This document shows positions 4,335-64,000 of a stretch of DNA of 64,000 nt, piece by piece. How positions within the stretch are numbered: the stretch's first letter is position 1; each line of letters starts with the position of its first letter. The notes under the pieces were generated by a model that saw nothing but the letters and a program-made list of their open reading frames with translations, was not told the DNA's origin and did not search any database. The position numbers were made by a program, and so were the translations under genes. Source of the DNA: Parvimonas micra (GTDB lineage Bacteria; Bacillota; Clostridia; Tissierellales; Peptoniphilaceae); NCBI RefSeq assembly GCF_021300775.1, contig NZ_JAJTJP010000003.1:310001-374000 (forward strand), in the 5' to 3' direction.

Positions 4335-4362
4335 CAAAAAAGATTAGACTTTCGTCTAATCT
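4335..4362 (-). terminator. Terminator after clcA
   Basis: Minus-strand stem AGATTAGAC/GTCTAATCT (4341-4349 with 4354-4362), 4-nt loop, then TTTTTT. The stem starts at the last base of the clcA stop codon. Confidence 0.85.
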
Positions 4363-5894
4363 CAATTATTTTGGCAAATCTTTTGTAATTCTGTAAATGT
4401 TTCAAACAATTTATTTTCATTTACAAGAATCTTTATTACATCACCATTTATTATTACAGTTTCACCATTTGGAATTATTTCTTCAACACCTCTGTCGATA
4501 TTTGTAATTAACATTCCATCTGGGAAATTCACTTCTTTAATTTTTTTATTTTCAATTTCACTTCCAAGCTCGACAACAATACTCATAGTCATTTTTTCTC
4601 TACATTTTGAAGTAGAAATATGTTCTTTTTCCATTAATCTCTCTAGTAAATATTCGTAAATAGGTAGAGATTTTAAATAATTTGGTATTGTATAAGTAAT
4701 TAGACAAACAATTGAAAGTGGCAATAGATATGAAAGATTTCCTGTCATTTCAAAAATTAGAATTATTGAAGTTATAGGCGCTCTAACAATAGCTGTTAAA
4801 TATCCTGCCATTCCAAGAATTATAAAGCTATTTATATAAATAGGATCTATAATTTTCCCAAAAATTGTTCCAATTGTTGCTCCTAAAACAAGTATTGGAA
4901 AGAAAATTCCACCAGGAACCCCTGAACTAAAACAAATTATTGAAAATAGTAATTTTACTATAAAAAATAAAATCAACATATAAATTGGAAAATCAACAGT
5001 TTGTAATTCTTTCATCAAGAAACCGCCACCACCTAATAAATTAGGCATAAAAGCTAATATAAATAAAGGTAGAACAAAATAAGGAATAAGTTTAAATTCT
5101 TGTTTTAATTTAATTCTATCTTGAACTTTCATAAAAAATTCCATTAAAAATATATAGAAAACTCCTAATATTGAAAGCACTATTGCAAATAAAATTATAG
5201 TCCAATAATTTACCAATGGTAATTTTTCAGCTAAACTAAAATTAAAAACAGTTTCCGTTCCATATAGTAATTTTGAAACTAAATCAGCAGTAATTGTAGA
5301 AGCCATACAAACTACTAAAAGTTTTTTACTAATATGTCTATGAATTTCTTCAACTGCAAATAAAATACCTGCAACAGGTGCATTAAATGCAGCAGCAAGT
5401 CCTGCACTCGCTCCACAAGTTATTAAAAACTTTTCAATTGTTTTGTTTTTCTTTAATTTTTTTGAAACTATTTTTCCACTCATTGCACCTATTTGAATTG
5501 AAGGACCTTCACGTCCAACTGAAAAACCAGATAGAGCAGTTAAGCCTCCTCCAACAATTTTTGCAAATAAAAGTTTTTCTGGATTAGGATTGATATAACC
5601 TTTTATTTCTGCCTCAACTTGAGGTATTCCAGATCCTCCACAAAACTTTGACATCTTCTTTAATTTTGAAACTAAAAAAGAAATAAAAATAAGCGCAACA
5701 AAAAGCAGTGGATAAATATATAAATGTTCTCTACTATAATTAATTATTACTCCTAAAACTCCTTCTATTCCGTGGATTATGTAACGATATAAACTTGAAA
5801 AACCTCCAGCTACTATCCCTACTAAAACACTATAAAAAAGTAGTTTTAAATCCTCATCTCTCTGATTATTAGTAATATTTTCTAAATTTTTCAT
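4362..5894 (-). CDS. clcA: ClC-family chloride/proton antiporter with C-terminal RCK domain
   Basis: 510 residues. The anion-pathway motifs are GSGIP (87-91), GREGP (127-131, with gating Glu129) and GGIFFP. FNAPVAGILFAVEE carries the acidic residue that serves as the proton glutamate in ClC antiporters, so this is likely an exchanger rather than a channel. About ten membrane segments end near residue 415; residues 430-505 resemble a TrkA-C/RCK-C ligand-binding domain. The start is preceded by GGAGTTTTT. The region from its start codon upstream is duplicated at 7873-8097. Confidence 0.92.
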   Translation of the reverse strand: MKNLENITNNQRDEDLKLLFYSVLVGIVAGGFSSLYRYIIHGIEGVLGVIINYSREHLYIYPLLFVALIFISFLVSKLKKMSKFCGGSGIPQVEAEIKGYINPNPEKLLFAKIVGGGLTALSGFSVGREGPSIQIGAMSGKIVSKKLKKNKTIEKFLITCGASAGLAAAFNAPVAGILFAVEEIHRHISKKLLVVCMASTITADLVSKLLYGTETVFNFSLAEKLPLVNYWTIILFAIVLSILGVFYIFLMEFFMKVQDRIKLKQEFKLIPYFVLPLFILAFMPNLLGGGGFLMKELQTVDFPIYMLILFFIVKLLFSIICFSSGVPGGIFFPILVLGATIGTIFGKIIDPIYINSFIILGMAGYLTAIVRAPITSIILIFEMTGNLSYLLPLSIVCLITYTIPNYLKSLPIYEYLLERLMEKEHISTSKCREKMTMSIVVELGSEIENKKIKEVNFPDGMLITNIDRGVEEIIPNGETVIINGDVIKILVNENKLFETFTELQKICQNN

Positions 5895-27032: not shown

Positions 27033-27054
27033 TTAGCAACAATATTAAATAACA

Positions 27055-27147
27055 CTTATCCAGAGAGGCGGAGGGACTGGCCCTGTGAAGCCCAGCAACC
27101 TGTTTTATAATAAGGTGCTAATTCCAGCGAATTATTCGGAAGATAAG
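27055..27147 (+). ncRNA. SAM-I (S-box) riboswitch aptamer
   Basis: Conserved features in order: P1 CTTATC (27055-27060), AGAGAGGCGGAGGGACTGGC, CCTGTGAAGCCCAGCAACC, AAGGTGCTAATTCCAGC and the closing P1 strand GATAAG (27142-27147). SAM binding stabilises P1, frees the terminator and turns the operon off. It controls metNIQ, which imports methionine, fitting the ligand. Confidence 0.97.
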
Positions 27148-27156
27148 AAATTTTCA

Positions 27157-27182: not shown

Positions 27183-27231
27183 ATATCTAAAAAAGTATTA
27201 GATTCCGAAAATATTGAAGAAGGAGGTTTGT

Positions 27232-28227
27232 ATGATAAAAATTGAAAATTTAGTCAAAGTTTATGACAATGGATTAAAAGCTGTTAATAATATTAGTTTA
27301 GAAGTCAAAAAAGGAGAAATTTTTGGTATTATCGGTATGAGTGGTGCTGGTAAATCATCTTTAATTAGATGTATTAACCGACTAGAATCTCCCACCGAAG
27401 GTAATATTTTTATAGACGGTAAAGATATTGTTACAATGAATAAAAAAGAGCTGAAAGAGGCAAGAAAAAACATGGCAATGATATTTCAATCTTTTAACCT
27501 TTTTTATCAAAAAAGTGTTTATGATAATATCGCTTATCCATTGAAAATAAACAAATGGAAGAAAAAAGATATCGATAAAAGAGTTAAAACTCTTTTAGAG
27601 TATGTTAACTTGAGCGATAAAATCCATGAATATCCTGCAAATCTTTCCGGAGGACAAAAACAAAGAGTAGCAATAGCTAGAGCTTTAGCGGTCCAACCAA
27701 AAATTTTACTTTGTGATGAAGCCACTTCGGCACTAGACCCTCAAAGTACAAAATCTATTTTGGAATTGCTTTTAAAAATCAGAGATGAATTTAATCTTAC
27801 AATTGTTTTAATAACTCACCAAATGGAAGTTGTTAAATCAGTTTGTGATAGAGCGGCAGTTATAGAAGACGGAAAAATAATTGAACAAAATACAGTTTTA
27901 GAACTTTTCACTTCACCAAAAACTGCGACAACAAAGAAATTTATTGAAACTTTACCACAATTTGAAGATTATGTAGATTACCCAGAACAAGATTATCCTG
28001 GTTCTATTCTAAGACTTGGTTTTACCAAAGACACTACAACAAGTCCCGTCATTTCCGAACTTATTAGACAAAAAAACATTGATATAAATATAATAAGTGG
28101 AAATATCGACAAGATAAAAGAAGGAAAAGTTGGTCATTTAATTGTAGAAGTTTTTGAAAAAGACAAAGTTGATGAAGTTAAAAGCTTCCTTGAAGAGAGA
28201 AAAATATTAGTTGAGGAGGTAAATTAA
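27232..28227 (+). CDS. metN: Methionine ABC transporter ATP-binding protein
   Basis: 331 residues from ATG 27232, with AGGAGG six bases upstream. ABC motifs are Walker A GMSGAGKSS, signature LSGGQ and Walker B LLCDEATSALDP. A C-terminal NIL/ACT-type domain (about 260-331) is the methionine-sensing domain that inhibits transport in MetN. First gene after the SAM-I riboswitch. Confidence 0.96.
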   Translation: MIKIENLVKVYDNGLKAVNNISLEVKKGEIFGIIGMSGAGKSSLIRCINRLESPTEGNIFIDGKDIVTMNKKELKEARKNMAMIFQSFNLFYQKSVYDNIAYPLKINKWKKKDIDKRVKTLLEYVNLSDKIHEYPANLSGGQKQRVAIARALAVQPKILLCDEATSALDPQSTKSILELLLKIRDEFNLTIVLITHQMEVVKSVCDRAAVIEDGKIIEQNTVLELFTSPKTATTKKFIETLPQFEDYVDYPEQDYPGSILRLGFTKDTTTSPVISELIRQKNIDINIISGNIDKIKEGKVGHLIVEVFEKDKVDEVKSFLEERKILVEEVN

Positions 28228-28228
28228 A

Positions 28229-28876
28229 ATGTCGAGTTCATTATTAAAAGCAACATTTCAAACAATTTACATGGTGTTCTTTTCATCACTATTTTCAACT
28301 ATTATTGGTGGCTTTTTAGGAATTGTATTGGTAGTTACAGATAAAAATGGAATAAAGAGAAATAAATTTGTTTATTCAGTTTTAAGCTTTTTTGTAAATC
28401 TTTTTAGATCAGTCCCATTTTTAATTTTAATAATTTATATTTTACCAATATCAAAAGCTTTAATAAATAAAATGACTGGTCCAACCGCTGCAATAATACC
28501 ATTAACAGTTTCAGCAATGCCATTTGTTGCAAGAATTTTTGAAAATGCTTTAAAAGAAGTTGATTACGGAACTTTAGAAGCAAGCATTTCAATCGGTTCA
28601 AGCGATAGAGAAATTATTAAAGTAATGCTTTCTGAAGCTTTACCAACTTTAGTAAATGGAATTACTTTAACAGTTATAAACTTAATTGGATATTCAGCTA
28701 TGGCAGGAACTGTAGGTGCTCAAGGTCTTGGAGACTTAGCTATCACTTACGGTTATCACAGATTTGATTATGTACAAATGACAGTCCCAGTTGTCATTAT
28801 AATATTATTAGTTCAAATTATTCAACTTTTAGGAAATTATATTTCCAAAAGAATTAACAAAAAAATAAGTATATAG
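28229..28876 (+). CDS. metI: Methionine ABC transporter permease
   Basis: 215 residues with five membrane helices. The EAA-type coupling loop reads EASISIGSSDREIIKVMLSEALPTL. It starts one base after metN ends, with GAGGAGG upstream. Confidence 0.95.
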   Translation: MSSSLLKATFQTIYMVFFSSLFSTIIGGFLGIVLVVTDKNGIKRNKFVYSVLSFFVNLFRSVPFLILIIYILPISKALINKMTGPTAAIIPLTVSAMPFVARIFENALKEVDYGTLEASISIGSSDREIIKVMLSEALPTLVNGITLTVINLIGYSAMAGTVGAQGLGDLAITYGYHRFDYVQMTVPVVIIILLVQIIQLLGNYISKRINKKISI

Positions 28877-28889
28877 GAGAGAGAAAAAT

Positions 28890-29717
28890 ATGAAAAAGAA
28901 ATTATTAGCATTAGCATTAGGCTTAGTTGTTGTTTTAACAACAGCATGTGGAGCAAAGAGCTCAGATAACAAATCTTCAGAAAAGAAAGAAGAAAAAAAA
29001 GTAGAAACTAAGGTTGTAAAAATTGGTGTATCACCAGAACCTCATCAAAAATTAGTTGAATTAGTTAAAGATGATTTAGAAAAAGAAGGAATTAAACTTG
29101 AAATTGTTACTTTCACTGATTATGTTCAACCTAACTTAGCATTAGATGGAAAAGAATTAGATATTAACTTCTTCCAACATAAACCATATTTAGACAAATT
29201 CAACCAAGAAAAAGGAACTAAAATTTCACCACTTGGAAATATTCACGTTGAACCAATGGGATTATACTTAAATGCACAATCTGAAATTAAAGATGGCGCT
29301 AAAATTGCAATTCCAAATGACCCATCAAACGGAGCAAGAGCATTGATCTTACTTGATAAAAACGGAATCATTAAATTAAAAGACAACACTAATATTTTAT
29401 CAAGTGTTAAAGATATAGCTGAAAATCCAAAGAACATTCAATTTACAGAAGTTGAAGCTGCTCAATTACCAAGAGTTATCAAAGATTTTGATGGTGCTGT
29501 AATTAACGGAAACTATGCAATTGAAGCTGGTCTTAACCCTACTAAAGATGCAAAATTAGTAGAAGGAAAAGATTCACCATACGCAAACTTCTTAGCAGTT
29601 AGAACTGGTGATGAAAACAACGAAACATACAAAAAAGTTTTAAAAGCATTACAAAGCGAAAAAGTTAAAGAATTTATAAACAAAACTTACAACGGAGCTG
29701 TTGTTCCTGCATTCTAA
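28890..29717 (+). CDS. metQ: Methionine-binding lipoprotein
   Basis: 275 residues. Signal with lipobox TTAC (Cys at about 20), a Ser/Lys-rich linker, then an NlpA/MetQ fold with KIGVSPEPHQKLVEL, NFFQHKPYLD, IPNDPSNGARAL and NGNYAIEAGL. It captures methionine outside the membrane and delivers it to MetI. AGGAGA precedes the ATG. Confidence 0.95.
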   Translation: MKKKLLALALGLVVVLTTACGAKSSDNKSSEKKEEKKVETKVVKIGVSPEPHQKLVELVKDDLEKEGIKLEIVTFTDYVQPNLALDGKELDINFFQHKPYLDKFNQEKGTKISPLGNIHVEPMGLYLNAQSEIKDGAKIAIPNDPSNGARALILLDKNGIIKLKDNTNILSSVKDIAENPKNIQFTEVEAAQLPRVIKDFDGAVINGNYAIEAGLNPTKDAKLVEGKDSPYANFLAVRTGDENNETYKKVLKALQSEKVKEFINKTYNGAVVPAF

Positions 29718-32185: not shown

Positions 32186-33517
32186 TTATTTATCCATATT
32201 GCCTGATAGCTCTATCAAAAATACAATTCCTATTTCACTTTTCTCTACTTTGTATTTTATTCCGTAGTTAAATAGAATATTTTTTACAATATACAAGCCT
32301 AAACCGTTGCTATTTTCTTTATTTAGACTGAAATTTATTTCAAATATTTTATTAATATCTAAGTCTTCGTTGTCCTTGTATGAATTTTCAATATAAAGCC
32401 AATCATCTTTAGTTCCAATGTTGATTACTCCGCCTTCGTCAGAGTATTTTACAGCATTGTTTATTAAGTTAGACAATACAATTTTTAGTGCAGTTATTCC
32501 TATATAGATTTTTTCTGTACTTAATTCATTTTTTATCTCTATATTCTTTTGATTTGCAAGTAATTTATACTGTTTAAGCACATCTTCTAATATATCATTT
32601 ACAACTATTATTTCTTCATCATTTTTCAAATGTTCAAAAGATGAAACAGATAACATCTGTGAAATACTTCTTGTAAGATTGTCAACAATATCAATACAAT
32701 TTCCTATATATAAGTCTCTGTCCTTGTATTTTCCAATATTGTATTTCATATTTTCTAATATTATTTTCAAACTTGCAAGCGGAGTTTTTAACTCATGTGA
32801 TGAACCTCTAAAAAAGTCGTATTTCAACTTTTCTAATTTAATTATCTCTTCATTTTTTATTTCTAAATCGTCAATTAATTCTAATAGAGTGCTATATAAA
32901 TTATTAATATGTTCCTTTAATTCTCCAACTTCATTTGTTGATTTAATCTTCAAATATGCATCTCTATCTAATTTCATCATTTTTTTAGTAACATTTTTTA
33001 TTTCTTTTATATTATTAGTTATCGCCTTTGCATAGATAAGCGAAACTATAATTGAAAATAGAAATGAAATAGATAATGAATATGGCAAGAATTTAAAACT
33101 CAATTCTTTTGCATCTTTATTCATATCAGCAGTAGAAATAAATTGAATTGAAATTTTTTCGCCATTTTTTAATTCGACTTCCCTTTCTTCAATTATTAAG
33201 GAATTATTTTCACTTTTTAAGTCAATATTGATGTCATCACCAATCTTAACTTCATTTTCTCTATTTTGTCCTTTTATAAAGACTTTTATATCACTGCTTT
33301 TTGAATAAAATTCTAAAGACTGTTCGACAAAATTCAAATCCTGTCCTTTAACATTCTTAGAAATTTCATCAGCTTTTGAATAAAGTTCTTGCTTTCTAGT
33401 CTCTAAATAAGTTCTTGGAAAAATAAAAAACACTAACAAATGTATTAAAATAATTACTGTTCCAAGAATCCCAAAAGTTTGTAAGAACATTTTTGGAAAT
33501 ATCTTTAAATTCTTCAT
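32186..33517 (-). CDS. Sensor histidine kinase, VncS-like
   Basis: 443 residues. Membrane helices at about 12-34 and 143-166 bracket an extracellular sensor. A HAMP-like region follows, then the phosphoacceptor His241 in SSHELKTPLAS and ATPase boxes NLINNAVKYSDEG (N box) and NGLGLYIVKNI (G box). The ATG overlaps the response-regulator stop by four bases. It should sense a signal handled by the adjacent ABC exporter, as VncS does beside vex genes in pneumococci (analogy). Confidence 0.9.
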   Translation of the reverse strand: MKNLKIFPKMFLQTFGILGTVIILIHLLVFFIFPRTYLETRKQELYSKADEISKNVKGQDLNFVEQSLEFYSKSSDIKVFIKGQNRENEVKIGDDINIDLKSENNSLIIEEREVELKNGEKISIQFISTADMNKDAKELSFKFLPYSLSISFLFSIIVSLIYAKAITNNIKEIKNVTKKMMKLDRDAYLKIKSTNEVGELKEHINNLYSTLLELIDDLEIKNEEIIKLEKLKYDFFRGSSHELKTPLASLKIILENMKYNIGKYKDRDLYIGNCIDIVDNLTRSISQMLSVSSFEHLKNDEEIIVVNDILEDVLKQYKLLANQKNIEIKNELSTEKIYIGITALKIVLSNLINNAVKYSDEGGVINIGTKDDWLYIENSYKDNEDLDINKIFEINFSLNKENSNGLGLYIVKNILFNYGIKYKVEKSEIGIVFLIELSGNMDK

Positions 33518-34170
33518 TTTCTCTCCAATTTATATCCAACATTTCTGATTGTTACTATACAATCTAAACCTAATTTCTTTCTTAACTCCTTTATATAGAC
33601 ATCAATTACTCTATCAAAAGGAATTTCATCAGTCTCTTTCCAAACATTATCTATTATCTGTGTTCTAGTAAGTGCCTGTCCTTCATTTTCTAATAAATAT
33701 TTTAAGATTTCAAGTTCTTTTGCATTAATATCAACATCTTCTCCATTTAATTTTGCTGAATAGCTTGTAAAATCCACTTCTGCATTATTATATTCAAATT
33801 TTTCATGATTTCCGAAATGTCTTTTAATTAAAGAATCTATTCTAACTTTTAAAACCGGTAATGAAAATGGCTTTTCCATATATCCATCAGCTAAACTTGA
33901 AAAAGCATTTATCTTGTATTCCTCATCATTAAAAGCTGTTAGCATTAGAACCGGAAGTTCGCTTTTTTTCCTAATTTCTTTTAAAACCTCTAATCCGTTT
34001 AATAACGGAATTTGAATATCTAATATTACTAGATTAATTTCATAACTCTCAAAGTTTTTTAAGGCTTCATGTCCATCTTTTGCTTGAACAATATCATAGC
34101 CGAATTCAGATAAGTATTCAGAAATTCCTTCTCTGATAATTTGATCATCTTCGACAACAAGTATTCTCAT
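33514..34170 (-). CDS. OmpR-family response regulator, VncR-like
   Basis: 218 residues. Receiver domain with acidic pair Asp8/Asp9, phosphorylation site Asp51 (VILDIQIP) and Lys in MEKPFS. The winged-helix DNA-binding domain spans about 125-218. The stretch LMLTAFNDEEYKINAFSSLA is close to what I remember of VncR. AGGAGG precedes the start. It is paired with the kinase downstream. Confidence 0.92.
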   Translation of the reverse strand: MRILVVEDDQIIREGISEYLSEFGYDIVQAKDGHEALKNFESYEINLVILDIQIPLLNGLEVLKEIRKKSELPVLMLTAFNDEEYKINAFSSLADGYMEKPFSLPVLKVRIDSLIKRHFGNHEKFEYNNAEVDFTSYSAKLNGEDVDINAKELEILKYLLENEGQALTRTQIIDNVWKETDEIPFDRVIDVYIKELRKKLGLDCIVTIRNVGYKLERK

Positions 34171-37870: not shown

Positions 37871-37900
37871 AAAAAGAATACTCTTTTGAGTATTCTTTTT
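37871..37900 (-). terminator. Terminator after the sirtuin gene
   Basis: Stem AAAAAGAATACTC/GAGTATTCTTTTT, loop TTTT, overlapping the stop codon at 37899. Confidence 0.8.
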
Positions 37901-38885
37901 ATTTCATAATTTTCTTTAGTATTTCTCCAATATCTCCATTTATACAAATACTTCTATCTTTTATTTGAGTTGGACAGAATGCTTCATTATAGTTAATACA
38001 AGCATATACTGCATTTTTATTTTCAATTGCCATTTGCCAGAAAGGATATTTTATAATTACTGGTGTATTATTTCCAACTCCTAGCTCTAAAAAGAGTATA
38101 TGTTTATCTTTATATTTTTCAAGAAAATCAGAATATGCTTTAGACGCCCTTTGCCAACCTTCATCCTCTACAAAATAACTATCCACACGAAGATTCATAG
38201 TTACATCCGAATCATCGGGACATTTTGGAATTAACTCAGTCGGAATTTTCATTGATATTTCTTTATTATCAGGAACTTCAAAAATACCTTCTTCATTTTT
38301 CTTAAAACCTTGAGCTTCTATAGCTTTCAAAACCCACTCTTCGTTATCGTAAGTATTTTGATTTTGTGAATTCACGCTTTGAAATAATCCATAATCACCT
38401 TGAGTATAGAAAAGACGTTTTTTATCAAATCCCGCTCTTTGAAATTGATGATCTACATTTGTCGTTATAACAAAATATTCTTTATCCTTTATAATGGAAA
38501 ACAAATCTCCGTAAACCGGTTTCGGTGGTTCGATATATCTATTAAAATATATATGTCTTGCCCACCAAGCCCATGTTGTTTCTTTATCTGGAAATGGATA
38601 AAAGCCACCTGAATACATATCGCTTATTCCAAATTTTTTTGAAAAATCAAAAAAATATTTTTCAAATCTCTCTCCACTATAAGTAAAACCTGCAGAAGTT
38701 GAAAGTCCAGCTCCTGCACCTATTACAATTGCATCAGCATTTTTTATTTCATTTTTTAAATTTTCAATTTTTACTTCTTCTAACTCTTCTTGAGACGATA
38801 TATTTTTTCCAACAGACTTTAATCCCTTAAGTCCAATTTGAATACTTTCTCTATATCCGTCTGTTTTATTATAATTTTCTTTCAT
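37899..38885 (-). CDS. Class M sirtuin (SirTM), protein ADP-ribosyltransferase
   Basis: 328 residues from ATG 38885; a longer open frame upstream only reads through the macrodomain gene. NAD-binding GAGAGLSTSAGF (56-67), TTNVDHQFQRAGF (Asn143, Asp145) and TQGDYG, where Gln162 replaces the catalytic His of deacetylating sirtuins. This replacement marks SirTM, which ADP-ribosylates rather than deacetylates (known from Staphylococcus and Streptococcus homologues). It overlaps the macrodomain gene by 17 bp. The lipoylated target GcvH-L and ligase LplA2 usual for this operon are not beside it. Confidence 0.88.
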   Translation of the reverse strand: MKENYNKTDGYRESIQIGLKGLKSVGKNISSQEELEEVKIENLKNEIKNADAIVIGAGAGLSTSAGFTYSGERFEKYFFDFSKKFGISDMYSGGFYPFPDKETTWAWWARHIYFNRYIEPPKPVYGDLFSIIKDKEYFVITTNVDHQFQRAGFDKKRLFYTQGDYGLFQSVNSQNQNTYDNEEWVLKAIEAQGFKKNEEGIFEVPDNKEISMKIPTELIPKCPDDSDVTMNLRVDSYFVEDEGWQRASKAYSDFLEKYKDKHILFLELGVGNNTPVIIKYPFWQMAIENKNAVYACINYNEAFCPTQIKDRSICINGDIGEILKKIMK

Positions 38886-39666
38886 AATATTTCTTATCCT
38901 CATCTTTGAAAACATTAAAAATAATTCTATCCATTGCCATTGGATGCTCTTTAACCCATTTTTTTGTTGTATCAATTGCGATTTCTGCTGCTCTTTCTTT
39001 TGGAAATCTAAATTCACCTGTTGATATACAACAAAATGCTACACTTTTAAGTCCATTTTCCAAACACATATCCAAAGTTCTTCCATAACAGTCAGCTAAA
39101 TCTTTTTCCAAATCTTCTGTAAGCTCTCCATAAACGATAGGCCCAACAATATGAATTACTTTTTTTGAAGGTAGATTGTATGCATCAGTAAGCATTGGAA
39201 TAGCCGTTGGCTGTTTGTAATCCTCTCCATATTTTTTCTTAAGTTCCTTCATCTTTTCATTACATTCAGCTCTTAGTTGTATTCCTGAGAAAGTGTGTAT
39301 TTGATTATCAATACATAGATGCATTGGAGCCCAACACCCAAGCATTATTGAATTTGCGGCATTAACTATTGCATCAACCTTGAGTCTTGTAATATCTCCC
39401 TGCCATATAGAAAAAATATCTTTTATAATAGGAATATCTTTTAACTCTACAATTCCCTTTTCTTCTGCACAAAATTTTAAAAATTCATCTTGAACTTTTA
39501 AAACCTCATCATCCATTTTTCTTGGAATACGGATATTCATAAGAGAACGCAAAATAATTTTCTTTTGACTTTCGTCCTCAGGAATTGGTATATGTTTATA
39601 ATCGTCTGACTCAGCTATAAATGCTTTTACTAAATAATCCAACATTTGTTCTTTATTTTTATTCAT
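38869..39666 (-). CDS. Zinc-dependent macrodomain (ADP-ribosyl hydrolase)
   Basis: 265 residues. A helical N-terminal extension (1-75) precedes the macrodomain. DAIVNAANS gives the ADP-ribose-binding Asn residues (102, 105), and GCWAPMHLCID provides the Zn ligands Cys111, His116 and Cys118 of the Zn-Macro class. Zn-Macro enzymes remove the ADP-ribose that SirTM attaches. The two genes are translationally coupled, giving a matched writer/eraser pair. Confidence 0.92.
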   Translation of the reverse strand: MNKNKEQMLDYLVKAFIAESDDYKHIPIPEDESQKKIILRSLMNIRIPRKMDDEVLKVQDEFLKFCAEEKGIVELKDIPIIKDIFSIWQGDITRLKVDAIVNAANSIMLGCWAPMHLCIDNQIHTFSGIQLRAECNEKMKELKKKYGEDYKQPTAIPMLTDAYNLPSKKVIHIVGPIVYGELTEDLEKDLADCYGRTLDMCLENGLKSVAFCCISTGEFRFPKERAAEIAIDTTKKWVKEHPMAMDRIIFNVFKDEDKKYYERKL

Positions 39667-39756: not shown

Positions 39757-40449
39757 TTAAAATCCTAGATATAGGAAATATAATCCGATTAGTAAAATAA
39801 TTATTCCAAAAACTATTTTTACAATATCTGAAATTTTCCCATAAGATTTATTTGACATCACTTTACCAACAAATCCTGTACTTGTTCCTGCAACAATAAC
39901 TAAAATACTATTTCCTATTGAATAAAGTAAGAATAATAACACTCCCCAAAGCAAACTTCCTTTTGAAGCAACAATTGCAAGTAAAGCAACTAAAATCGGT
40001 GTTGAACAAGGGCTAGAAAATAATCCCGCCATTATTCCAACAATCAAAGCTCCAACATAGCCTGTCTTTTTGCTTTTATTAGTCAAAATTTTACTTGGAA
40101 TTACATTTATTACTTCCCAAGTTTGTAATGCCATTAAAATCATTACAGTTCCTAGAAATAAATTCCAAAATTGTCCTGATTGATTGAAAATTTTACTTAA
40201 CAATGCCGCTAAAACTCCAAGTGTTGTATAAGTTATAGCCATACCGATTGCAAATACAACGGAAGTTTTAAAAGCTCTTTTTGTATCATCTTCTTTTGTG
40301 CCAGTCATATATCCAATAACTAATGGAATTGAAGCAAGTGAGCATGGTGAAATAGAAGTAAGTATCCCTCCAAGTAAAGCTAAAATTGGAGCAAAGATAC
40401 TAAATGATTTTAAACCATTACCTATTAAGCTCTCTAAATTATTTAGCAT
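39757..40449 (-). CDS. ccdA: CcdA-type thiol-disulfide membrane oxidoreductase
   Basis: 230 residues with six membrane helices. The two redox Cys are in ISPCSLASIPLVIGYM (helix 1) and FSSPCSTPILVALLA (helix 4), the CcdA/DsbD-beta arrangement. It carries electrons from cytoplasmic thioredoxin to an extracytoplasmic thioredoxin-like partner. That partner is very likely the product of the gene overlapping it by 11 bp. GAGGAG lies ten bases before the ATG. Confidence 0.92.
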   Translation of the reverse strand: MLNNLESLIGNGLKSFSIFAPILALLGGILTSISPCSLASIPLVIGYMTGTKEDDTKRAFKTSVVFAIGMAITYTTLGVLAALLSKIFNQSGQFWNLFLGTVMILMALQTWEVINVIPSKILTNKSKKTGYVGALIVGIMAGLFSSPCSTPILVALLAIVASKGSLLWGVLLFLLYSIGNSILVIVAGTSTGFVGKVMSNKSYGKISDIVKIVFGIIILLIGLYFLYLGF

Positions 40450-41041
40450 TTTTTAACATCTCCTCAATAACTGCCTTTAAATCTTCGTATTGAACAACTC
40501 CCTCTGAACCACCTAATTTTAATTCTCCAGATTTTCTATCTTCATAAGCAACATAGTTAATTCTTGATTCTAATTCTTCTGGGCTTTTAAATGGTGTTCC
40601 ATCTGCATTAAAGTAAAATAATGTAGGTGTTACTCTTATAGGGAATTGTGACGTAAAGTCCATTTCTTTTCTAATATTAATAGTTTGTATAATTACTCTA
40701 TCTTTATATTCTTCTCTTAGTTTTTCCAAAACCTTATGCTGTATAGTACAAGCATGTCAACCATCTTGGCTAAAATCTAAAATCATTACTTTCTTTTGAC
40801 TTTTTAAACTTTCCAAAGTAAGTTTTTCATTTGACTTAGACTCATTTTTTGTTTCTTCCTTTTTGCTAGAGTCATTATTTGTACTTGATTCTTTTTTAGA
40901 ATCTGTATTTTTATTTTGGTTTTCAGTAACTGTATTATTACTTGTGTTTTCATCTTTATTTTTTACAAAGAAATTTTTGAAAACAAAAAGACCTATAACT
41001 AATACAAGTACTGCACCAAGTGCAATAATTTTCTTTTTCAT
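40439..41041 (-). CDS. Membrane-anchored thioredoxin-like selenoprotein (in-frame TGA read as Sec)
   Basis: Read through TGA 40759-40757, the frame gives 200 residues: an N-terminal membrane anchor (about 5-22), a Lys/Asn/Ser-rich linker (28-72) and a thioredoxin fold (73-200). The line VMILDFSQDG-U-HAC places Sec95 and Cys98 in a UxxC redox motif exactly where thioredoxins have CxxC. The cis-proline (VTPT, Pro139) is present. A hairpin (ATGCT-T-GTA / TACAGCAT) starts directly after the TGA, a possible bacterial SECIS. Downstream codons stay in frame to the stop and the gene overlaps ccdA. Alternative: a Cys-to-stop nonsense mutation (TGT to TGA). Confidence 0.82.
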
Positions 41042-41196
41042 AGTTCTCTCTCCTATTCTATATTATTTTCAATATACCCTTTAATTAAAATAAATAATCA
41101 TAATCAAAAAGAAGAATGACAATTTAATTGCAAAATACTTTTAATTTAGTTCAATTGTCCCTGATAATCTTATTAGATTGTTTAATAATTATGGTG

Positions 41197-61579: not shown

Positions 61580-61804
61580 TTATAATTCCTTACATTCTTC
61601 CCATTCTATATCTTCTGTTTTTAAAAGTTCTAATATTTGATCTTTAAGCTCTGGACTACATTCCCATGCAATTCCACATCCTGCTGATAGAACTCTTGGA
61701 ACTGGTACAAGTTTTCCTTGAATATTATTTTCTTTACATGCACTTTCAGTTGCCATTGCCTCTGCAGAAGTATAAAATGTTATATACAGCTTAGTTTCTT
61801 TCAT
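61580..61804 (-). CDS. DUF3343 protein, putative selenium/sulfur carrier
   Basis: 74 residues. It has a ferredoxin-like alpha/beta pattern (YITFYTSAEAMATESACKEN) and conserved Cys in SAGCGIAWECSPE. DUF3343 genes sit next to yedF, yedE and cysteine desulfurase genes in selenium-using anaerobes. Its ATG overlaps the yedF-like stop by one base. A role as a Se or S shuttle is inferred from this linkage. Confidence 0.85.
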   Translation of the reverse strand: MKETKLYITFYTSAEAMATESACKENNIQGKLVPVPRVLSAGCGIAWECSPELKDQILELLKTEDIEWEECKEL

Positions 61805-62010
61805 TATTCAACCGTTATTTCATAGTCTAAGTCAACTTCTTTTACAGAAACTTTTTTACCTTGACTAGTTGCATAATGAGTAATATTTTTTACTACATGA
61901 GCTTCGCTAGCTAATACTTTGTATGTTTCTTCTTTATTTTCTTTAAGAGCATCTTGTAAAATTAAAACTGGTTCTGGACAAGATAATCCTCTAACGTCTA
62001 ATTCTTTCAT
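61804..62010 (-). CDS. TusA/YedF-like sulfur or selenium carrier
   Basis: 68 residues. The active-site motif is LDVRGLSCPEPVL with the reactive Cys in CPxP; HVVKNITHYATSQGKKV follows. The protein is the short TusA-like form without the DsrE-like C-terminal domain found in full YedF. It sits between yedE and the DUF3343 gene. Confidence 0.88.
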   Translation of the reverse strand: MKELDVRGLSCPEPVLILQDALKENKEETYKVLASEAHVVKNITHYATSQGKKVSVKEVDLDYEITVE

Positions 62011-62027
62011 ATCAATCTCCTTAAATC

Positions 62028-63131
62028 TTATCTAGTTTTTTCTTTCTTTAATCCTAAGAAAGCTATGATAAATAAAACAAATATTGAAGCAACAACAAAT
62101 ATTTGTCCATTTAATCCTGGACCACCTGCTGCAGCCTTAATTCCTTTTGCTGCATTTTCAACTGCTGCTGAACCACCAGCTAATTTAAAGTTATGAGCTA
62201 AAGCTGCTCCAACAAACATTCCTAGAACTGTGATAACTGAATCTGATGATCCTGTTCCAGCAAGAACTAATTGTCTTAAAGGACAACCACCAAGTAATAC
62301 AGCACAGAATCCTACTGCATACATTGATAAGATATTCCAAACTGTTTGAGCATGAGCTATCGGACCAAAAGGAACGAATTTAAAGTTGTTTGTTGCTAAA
62401 TTATAAACTAACATAACTATAAAAATACCACTAACTACTGAGAATAATCTAAAATCTTTTAGTAAGATAATATCTCTTATTGAACCAGCAAAACACATTC
62501 TACTTTTTTGAGCAATTACACCAAATAAAAGACCTACTCCAAGTGAAGCATACCAAATTGCATGAACACTTCCTGGACCTTTTTGGCTAAATGCATAAAG
62601 TGAAGGAACTGCTATAACTAAAGCAAATAGAACTGCTACAACTAATGGGAAAGCATACCCATTTTCTTTTTTGGTTGTATAAGCTCTTCCTAAACTGAAG
62701 CCTTTTCTTAAGAAATAAGCACCAGTAGCAATACCTGCAACAAATCCTACAAGTCCTACATATGCACTAATATCTCCTGCTGACATTCTTAAGATCATTC
62801 TTAAAGGACATCCTAAGAATACTAGAGCACATACCATCATTATTACACCTAAGAAAAATCTTATAACTGGTGAAGAACCAGCTGTTGATCTGTATTCTTT
62901 AGTGAATATTGAAATTAAAAATGAACCAATAATAATTCCTACAATTTCTGGTCTAAAATATTGAACCACTTCCGCATTGTGGAACTTCATAGCTCCTGCA
63001 GTATCTCTGATAAAACAAGCTATACAGAAAGCCATATTTTTTGGATTGCCTAAATATGCAAGTAATGCTGCTCCCAAACCTGCAATAATGCCTAATGTAA
63101 ACAATCCTTTTTTTGTGTTAAAAAAACGCAT
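62028..63131 (-). CDS. yedE: YedE/FdhT-type selenium metabolism membrane protein
   Basis: 367 residues from ATG 63131 (AGGAGG seven bases upstream); a start seven codons earlier lies before this RBS. About ten membrane helices. The paired motifs FLGCPLRMILRMSAGD and LLGGCPLRQLVLAGTG, plus KSRMCFAGSIRDI, are typical of YeeE/YedE transporters with conserved Cys. It probably imports a reduced selenium or sulfur species. It starts just after the cysteine desulfurase gene. Confidence 0.92.
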   Translation of the reverse strand: MRFFNTKKGLFTLGIIAGLGAALLAYLGNPKNMAFCIACFIRDTAGAMKFHNAEVVQYFRPEIVGIIIGSFLISIFTKEYRSTAGSSPVIRFFLGVIMMVCALVFLGCPLRMILRMSAGDISAYVGLVGFVAGIATGAYFLRKGFSLGRAYTTKKENGYAFPLVVAVLFALVIAVPSLYAFSQKGPGSVHAIWYASLGVGLLFGVIAQKSRMCFAGSIRDIILLKDFRLFSVVSGIFIVMLVYNLATNNFKFVPFGPIAHAQTVWNILSMYAVGFCAVLLGGCPLRQLVLAGTGSSDSVITVLGMFVGAALAHNFKLAGGSAAVENAAKGIKAAAGGPGLNGQIFVVASIFVLFIIAFLGLKKEKTR

Positions 63132-63135
63132 ATGA

Positions 63136-64000
63136 TTACCTCCTATCATCAATAATTTTTTTAATCGCGTTTATAGCAAGCTCAATCTCTTCATCAGAAT
63201 TTGAATGAGAAAAGCTAAATCTAACCATACCTTGTTTAACAGTCCCTAGCGCTTTATGTATAAGAGGTGCACAATGAGCTCCTGGTCTTGTTGAAATTTT
63301 AAACTCTTCATATAACATACTACTTACTTCTGAAGAATCCATATCTGAAATATTTAAAGAAACTATTGGCGCTCTATATTCTGTTTCAAAATCTCCATAA
63401 ATTTTTACTTCCGGTAATTTACTTACTCCATCATAAAATTTTCTTGAAAGCTCCAATGCTCTTTTCGTTAAATTTTCCATCTTATTTCTTAAAATATATT
63501 CAATAGATACATGTAATCCTGCAATTCCATGTGCATTTAGTGTTCCAGCTTCAAGTCTTGTAGGCATTTTATCAGGTTGAAACTCATCATAGCTATGAGT
63601 TCCGCTACCTCCAACAATTAGAGGTCTTATGTAAATTTCTTCTCTAACGCAAAGCACACCAACTCCCTGAGGTGCAAGCATAGATTTATGTCCTGTAAAG
63701 CAAAGTACATCAATATTCATTTCTTTCATATCAATATTGAAAGCTCCAGCAGTTTGTGATGCATCAACAACAAAAATAAGATTATTTTCTCTACAAAAAT
63801 CTCCAACTTTTCTTATATCAGTTATATTACCTGTAACATTTGATGCATGTGTTAAAACTATCCCCTTTGTATTTGCTTTTACTAATTTTGAAAGCTCATC
63901 TAAATTAAGAACTCCATTTTCAAATACATTTATATAACTTACTTCTGCTCCCTTTGCTCTTAAATAATTAATTGGTCTTAAAACTGAATTATGTTCGGCA
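63136..64000 (-). CDS. Cysteine desulfurase (5' end outside window)
   Basis: 288 codons are visible. PLP motifs are EHNSVLRP, THASNVTGNI, VVDASQTAGAF and the lysine in FTGHKSMLAPQG; AHCAPLIHK holds the catalytic Cys in the form seen in the selenium-linked CsdB/SufS-like group. It releases S from Cys or Se from Sec and loads carriers such as the YedF-like protein. The N-terminal 90 or so residues lie beyond base 64000. Confidence 0.92.
   Translation of the reverse strand, partial: AEHNSVLRPINYLRAKGAEVSYINVFENGVLNLDELSKLVKANTKGIVLTHASNVTGNITDIRKVGDFCRENNLIFVVDASQTAGAFNIDMKEMNIDVLCFTGHKSMLAPQGVGVLCVREEIYIRPLIVGGSGTHSYDEFQPDKMPTRLEAGTLNAHGIAGLHVSIEYILRNKMENLTKRALELSRKFYDGVSKLPEVKIYGDFETEYRAPIVSLNISDMDSSEVSSMLYEEFKISTRPGAHCAPLIHKALGTVKQGMVRFSFSHSNSDEEIELAINAIKKIIDDRR

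Follow-up and report, generated by a model that had tools for sequence, protein, structure and literature searches.

Does the TGA codon that divides a thioredoxin-like gene of Parvimonas micra mark a broken gene or the selenocysteine codon of a selenoprotein? We considered this question for the window, that is, the whole 64,000-nucleotide stretch of DNA analysed, for the genome from which it comes (1,476,176 bases in five contigs) and for related genomes. Parvimonas is an oral anaerobe that has also been linked to tumours. A sequence-only reading had proposed a selenoprotein at this locus, and the selenocysteine genes of the genome, the conservation of the TGA and the presence of Cys in homologues support that proposal. 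The gene very probably encodes a membrane-anchored thioredoxin with selenocysteine at residue 95 (Sec95), with Sec insertion itself deduced from comparison of sequences.

A reading frame divided by one TGA

The minus-strand frame 41041-40439 opens with ATG and runs for 94 codons to a TGA at 40759-40757 and then for 105 codons to a TAA, with no other stop. The sequence-only reading had placed the TGA at exactly these coordinates and described the frame as otherwise continuous, which it is. Its expectation that a gene finder would see broken frames also agreed with our plain ORF listing, which returned two fragments, one of 94 aa up to the TGA and one of 96 aa from an internal TTG. With the TGA read as Sec, the product is a protein of 200 residues with Sec95 in a UHAC motif, Cys98 and Pro139. 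The Pfam Thioredoxin domain is matched at residues 77-149 (E 1e-8), and PF13098 is matched as well, at 28.8 bits compared with a cut-off of 27. The main features of the gene are as follows.

40439..41041, minus strand: predicted selenothioredoxin gene, 200 aa, Sec95 at the TGA, TAA end
40757..40759, minus strand: in-frame TGA, putative Sec95, first position of UxxC; site common to six of six genus genomes, Cys outside the genus
40748..40750, minus strand: TGT, predicted resolving Cys98 of UHAC; alignment column invariant
40625..40627, minus strand: CCT, Pro139 at the cis-Pro position; alignment column invariant
40967..41017, minus strand: hydrophobic helix at the N-terminus (residues 9-25) and likely membrane anchor, ahead of a polar linker (from sequence and a low-confidence model helix)
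41048..41054, minus strand: AGGAGAG, likely ribosome-binding site before the ATG (from sequence)

As had been claimed, the TGA occupies the first position of a CxxC motif and the cis-proline is kept; both Cys98 and Pro139 lie in invariant alignment columns. The role of the cis-Pro is established for the thioredoxin fold. The AGGAGAG motif also precedes the start codon in the other five Parvimonas species. The N-terminal helix is likely to serve as a membrane anchor, a role that we assign, together with the topology that it implies, from its sequence.

An AlphaFold2 model, built from a 15-row alignment with Cys in place of Sec, contained a helix at residues 9-25 at low confidence (blocks 49-59), a disordered linker at 27-70 (pLDDT under 50) and a confident thioredoxin-like domain from residue 81 (blocks 91-98). 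Between strands 140-144 and 174-180 the model has a short helix and strand (155-167) that the ordinary thioredoxin fold is not known to have. Foldseek returned 371 PDB matches at E 0.001, for example 2ynx_A with a TM score of 0.81 by target length; the best 50 were thioredoxins or fusions (some of these entries we take to be thioredoxin fusions), with nothing more specific among them. The Pfam match, the predicted fold and the invariant Pro at the cis-Pro position together identify a predicted thioredoxin fold.

The simplest objection is that the TGA is a nonsense mutation or a sequencing error, leaving a dead gene or two short proteins, as the plain ORF listing, which breaks the frame in two, would have it. 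Each of the six Parvimonas genomes, including the five whose homologues share 41-72% identity with the window protein, contained one homologue with exactly one in-frame TGA, in the same column, and no other stop, so the split frame is not a matter of chance. Selection after the TGA is purifying. Nei-Gojobori dN/dS values, which cover 8 of the 15 gene pairs, were 0.20-0.29 in this region for the window gene compared with the five others, 0.08 for L018-L019, 0.12 for L019-L020 and 0.10 for L020-L021. In the 22 codons 5′ of the TGA they ranged from 0.03 to 0.70, with two pairs saturated and little constraint in the L017-L022 pair (0.70), and in the anchor and linker from 0.20 to 0.65. The 11-base overlap with the adjoining ccdA gene is also conserved, and if translation stopped at the TGA the product would lack the resolving Cys and the greater part of the fold. 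We therefore regard a pseudogene or sequencing error as extremely improbable.

These results also settle two points of the sequence-only reading, namely that the frame is open and conserved on either side of the TGA and that close relatives would share the TGA without a second break. A third, whether homologues carry TGA or a Cys codon at this place, was answered by the alignment, in which all nine rows from outside the genus have Cys in the TGA column. In every Parvimonas genome a plain gene finder would presumably report a broken gene here, even though the gene is conserved and under selection.

Probable selenocysteine decoding and the candidate SECIS element

The genome contains the full set of selA, selB, selC and selD that the sequence-only reading had proposed to look for. 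Its tRNA-Sec scored 71.9 bits compared with an Rfam gathering score of 47 and was called tRNA-SeC by ARAGORN; a lax search for this tRNA gave a match in all 14 control genomes, over the cut-off in only 5. SelA (605 bits), SelB (360) and SelD (382.8) all exceeded their cut-offs, which SelB and SelD each did in 2 of 14 control genomes, and selD, selA and selB adjoin on contig C1 at about 435205-439530. At the family level, SelB was over its cut-off in 48 of 130 genomes, all six Parvimonas among them. Other genes of the genome also have a TGA in frame: in SelD it follows TSG, in GrdB (PF07355) it follows LTST and precedes GTCTRC, and in the frame just before grdB, which we take to be GrdA, it follows ECFV.

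The window itself carries genes that appear to be related to selenium supply.

61580..63999, minus strand: selenium/sulfur supply cluster with a PF11823 Se/S carrier-like protein, a TusA-like protein, YedE and a cysteine desulfurase family frame (from profile scores)

YedE, a putative selenium transporter, scored 470 bits (cut-off 200) and the PF11823 protein 81 bits. The TusA-like protein (PF01206, 56 bits) is short, corresponding to the first part of YedF, and reached only 39 of the 110 bits required for YedF; the cysteine desulfurase family frame is cut by the window end and reached 332 of 377 required bits. Taking DUF3343 to be the old name of PF11823, all four genes named in the sequence-only reading (yedE, a YedF-like gene, DUF3343 and a cysteine desulfurase) are accounted for in this cluster. 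It lies about 21 kb from the selenothioredoxin gene and so does not belong to its operon.

The UGA could instead be read through as Cys, Trp or another amino acid without selenium, and the modest SECIS evidence described below would be compatible with this. We consider it very unlikely, since tRNA-Sec, selA, selB and selD are all present, and since SelD, GrdB and the GrdA-like frame of the same genome use TGA at the Sec site. The TGA also falls exactly at the catalytic Cys column. Nor does TGA serve as a sense codon in general here, since it terminates long ORFs elsewhere in the window (for example 4362-5894 and 33514-34170). Under selenocysteine insertion, the reading that we prefer, the UGA would be decoded by SelB and tRNA-Sec, aided by an mRNA hairpin just downstream.

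To describe candidate hairpins we used a bacterial SECIS model after PMC13188914, which combines shape, energy (threshold -7.5) and a loop 16-37 nt from the UGA. Two hairpins need to be told apart.

40719..40733, minus strand: candidate SECIS hairpin with a 6-bp stem and the apical loop GGA at 40727-40725, 29 nt downstream of the TGA (from folding and alignment)
40736..40755, minus strand: hairpin named by the sequence-only reading; forms in this sequence, without conservation in the five other species

In the window gene, hairpin 40733-40719 has the required shape, with pair probabilities of 0.32-0.50, and the folded stretch misses the energy threshold at -6.5. Five of the six Parvimonas genes have the shape and four (L018-L021) the energy too. 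In L022 the minimum-energy fold fails on shape, and the hairpin can form with a pair probability of about 0.1. Across the six pairs, 36 of 36 alignment cells can pair, and L022 shows one double change (U-A to C-G). This covariation is suggestive only, as it was equalled in 91 of 500 shuffles.

The simple model is a weak test, and chance passes are frequent in the window: among 2394 TGAs on both strands, 347 pass on shape and 56 on energy as well. Of the comparison stretches, the genome's grdB passes on both, the L055 grdB on shape only, and selD (L049) fails, whereas the GrdA-like stretch (L051 around 1110) hardly folds (-1.5); the failure of the SelD and GrdA-like folds is a further reason to call the model weak here. 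A GGA or GGU loop also follows the TGA of grdB. Stronger evidence than either the covariation or the model match came from synonymous recoding (500 recodings per gene, with codon usage taken from 12 ORFs of the window). The proportion of recodings whose fold was at least as good as that of the native 48 nt following the TGA was 0.012, 0.030, 0.020, 0.002, 0.016 and 0.000 in the six genes, which are related and so not independent.

The 5+3-bp hairpin that the sequence-only reading had described straight after the TGA does exist in this sequence. It is not the conserved one, which is 40733-40719; its pairs form in 75.0% of cells compared with a shuffled mean of 73.9%, and we rejected it as the SECIS element. 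A hairpin at alignment columns 11-24 (40749-40736) was also set aside, since the model calls for a loop 16-37 nt from the UGA and this one starts at 12 nt. Pairing is possible in 86.7% of cells, and 26 of 500 shuffles equal its covariation score; it may contribute to Sec decoding.

Linkage to ccdA and a likely electron route

The gene directly downstream encodes a likely redox partner.

39757..40449, minus strand: ccdA, DsbD transmembrane-domain protein, 230 aa (Pfam DsbD_TM, 1.1e-25)

In six of six Parvimonas loci, the first 11 bases of ccdA are shared with the 3′ end of the selenothioredoxin gene. Among the 11 same-family Cys homologues (L025-L035), ccdA is directly downstream in nine; of the other two, L026 has no CcdA-like frame in the following stretch listed and L031 ends with its contig. 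Of the 21 class-level loci (L061-L081), 15 have a ccdA motif on the downstream side by a test that undercounts, having missed L060, whose ccdA is visible as L033.

This gene order makes it likely, in keeping with the sequence-only reading, that the protein works outside the cytoplasm and is supplied by CcdA, with electron flow and topology both predicted. That CcdA would re-reduce an anchored selenothioredoxin is suggested by analogy with the pneumococcal CcdA-Etrx-MsrAB2 system (PMC3914529). In such a scheme, Sec95 of UHAC would be the attacking residue and Cys98 would resolve, and CcdA would most likely take electrons from a donor in the cytoplasm, carry them through the membrane and re-reduce the selenenylsulfide. 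The selenothioredoxin could then reduce oxidised proteins outside the membrane, of which a membrane-anchored MsrAB is one candidate.

A cytoplasmic donor for CcdA, such as a canonical TrxA, was not found with the Thioredoxin Pfam model in the six Parvimonas genomes. The selenothioredoxin was the only match to this model in five of them, and G003 adds one short CxxC protein. This absence is notable because the model has a match in 13 of 14 control genomes, although a divergent thioredoxin or a glutaredoxin would be missed. A TrxB-like reductase occurs in all six genomes; its score exceeds the cut-off in one and falls short by 1 to 15 bits in the other five. In the window genome its gene directly precedes a grdE-like gene, with no trxA between; we take this neighbour to be grdE, of the glycine reductase genes. 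These observations hint that Parvimonas runs without an ordinary thioredoxin.

The same absence is what would favour a selenoprotein with a partner other than CcdA, which might be reduced in another way or act as an oxidase or isomerase. We judge this unlikely given that ccdA overlaps the gene at every genus locus and directly follows most of the same-family Cys homologues. With CcdA as the preferred partner, the downstream target is less certain. An MsrA-MsrB fusion whose N-terminus carries a hydrophobic stretch is encoded in the window genome (L097 832-1899, contig C1), and a membrane-anchored MsrAB is present in five of six Parvimonas genomes (the window genome and four others). MsrB was not found in G005, a genome with the selenothioredoxin, so MsrAB cannot be its sole target. 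We tentatively put forward MsrAB as a target. More speculative is a genus-wide picture, in which a Cys-to-Sec switch gave Parvimonas a CcdA-fed surface selenothioredoxin that keeps MsrAB and other surface proteins reduced, with no other recognisable thioredoxin.

The window genome also has a second MsrAB-like frame (L102 1216-2649 and L101, G000:C3 190214-190554), with a lipoprotein-like N-terminus and an MsrB match split over two frames; part of it looks rhodanese-like by eye.

Origin of the probable selenocysteine form and known relatives

Homologues with the Sec form were seen only in Parvimonas in the genomes searched here. The family-level search (E 0.001) gave a match in 53 of 130 genomes, of which 47 belong to other genera, and no row from outside the genus had a lone TGA. 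We read 15 of the family loci (L025-L037, L043 and L046, leaving out L038-L042, L044, L045, L047 and L048). All 11 with the same architecture (L025-L035) have Cys in a CxxC motif, and L036, L037, L043 and L046 are ordinary CxxC thioredoxin-like proteins. At the class level, Cys is at the TGA site in 21 of 21 loci (L061-L081; 20 distinct proteins, L073 and L074 being identical), with L082-L088 outside the set read. Six class-level frames show a TGA upstream of the likely start codon and thus outside the proteins. Of the 398 genomes sampled across the phylum, 26 matched at 1e-20, with a TGA only in G000.

No Sec form outside the genus was found in the other 124 family genomes, among the matches listed for the other 390 of 391 sampled class genomes, or in the other 397 of 398 sampled phylum genomes, three sets that overlap. 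Three candidates were rejected: G284, G060 and G073 all have CxxC; in G284 the TGA is the ordinary stop codon, and in G060 and G073 it precedes the domain. The G059 row of the family search resembles G060, and in G407, G159 and G248 of the class search the TGA is accompanied by other stops. A search of a contig collection gave two loci, the G004 contig and a remote Cys thioredoxin.

The six Sec proteins formed one branch of a 34-row tree, with support of 99/97 and in 100% of 200 bootstrap trees. The tree leaves out L033/L060 (one gene, near L034), L074, L079, L081 and generic thioredoxin-like hits. The simplest account is that Cys changed to Sec once, in the ancestor of Parvimonas, as far as an unrooted tree can suggest. 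SelB was over its cut-off in 9 of the 11 Cys-form family genomes (all except G064 and G069), so this protein does not demand Sec, and Cys has been kept where Sec could be made. The locus thus offers a clean Cys-to-Sec switch, on one branch surrounded by Cys relatives and with a likely partner encoded next door, and the effect of selenium on extracytoplasmic reduction is directly testable in this gene pair.

Selenocysteine thioredoxins and thiol:disulfide interchange selenoproteins have long been known (PMC1794560, PMC13188914). Thioredoxin selenoproteins (Trx, PF00085, UxxC) are described from Treponema denticola, Geobacter and others (PMC1794560) and are tabled in PMC13188914. They share the thioredoxin fold and Sec at the first motif position with the Parvimonas protein, which is set apart by its likely N-terminal anchor, polar linker and overlapping ccdA. 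The thiol:disulfide interchange selenoprotein in the same table resembles it in UxxC and in PF13098, whose cut-off the Parvimonas protein just passes. Streptococcus pneumoniae has surface thioredoxins, Etrx1 and Etrx2, with CcdA and MsrAB2 (PMC3914529). Parvimonas resembles this system in its predicted surface thioredoxin, its likely CcdA partner and a membrane-anchored MsrAB in the genome. In contrast, the Etrx proteins are Cys lipoproteins, whereas the Parvimonas protein has a putative Sec and a hydrophobic anchor, and its MsrAB is on another contig (C1). The Cys-form thioredoxin-CcdA pairs of the family and class have the same architecture, often with ccdA adjoining, and carry Cys rather than Sec in all those read.

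For the selenothioredoxin, none of the NCBIfam models scored above its cut-off, and no selenoprotein model gave a match. The thioredoxin equivalog TIGR01068 scored 38.7 bits compared with a cut-off of 96.8, and the selenoprotein models SaoT (NF040730) and HUIPC type (NF047660), named in PMC13188914, were not among the 20 NCBIfam families at E 0.01. A paper on this protein was not found in the mostly non-subscription literature on Parvimonas selenoproteins or selenocysteine, or on selenoproteins and CcdA. What appears new here is a selenothioredoxin in Parvimonas that is predicted to be CcdA-coupled and membrane-anchored.

Two other parts of the window are also of note. Downstream of ccdA, a macro-domain protein (38869-39666, PF01661) overlaps the frame 37899-39017, which looks SIR2-like by eye, so that 37899-39666 is possibly a macrodomain/sirtuin pair. 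A SAM riboswitch at 27053-27149 (86.7 bits) precedes the ORFs at 27214-29717, which by eye look like a methionine ABC transporter.
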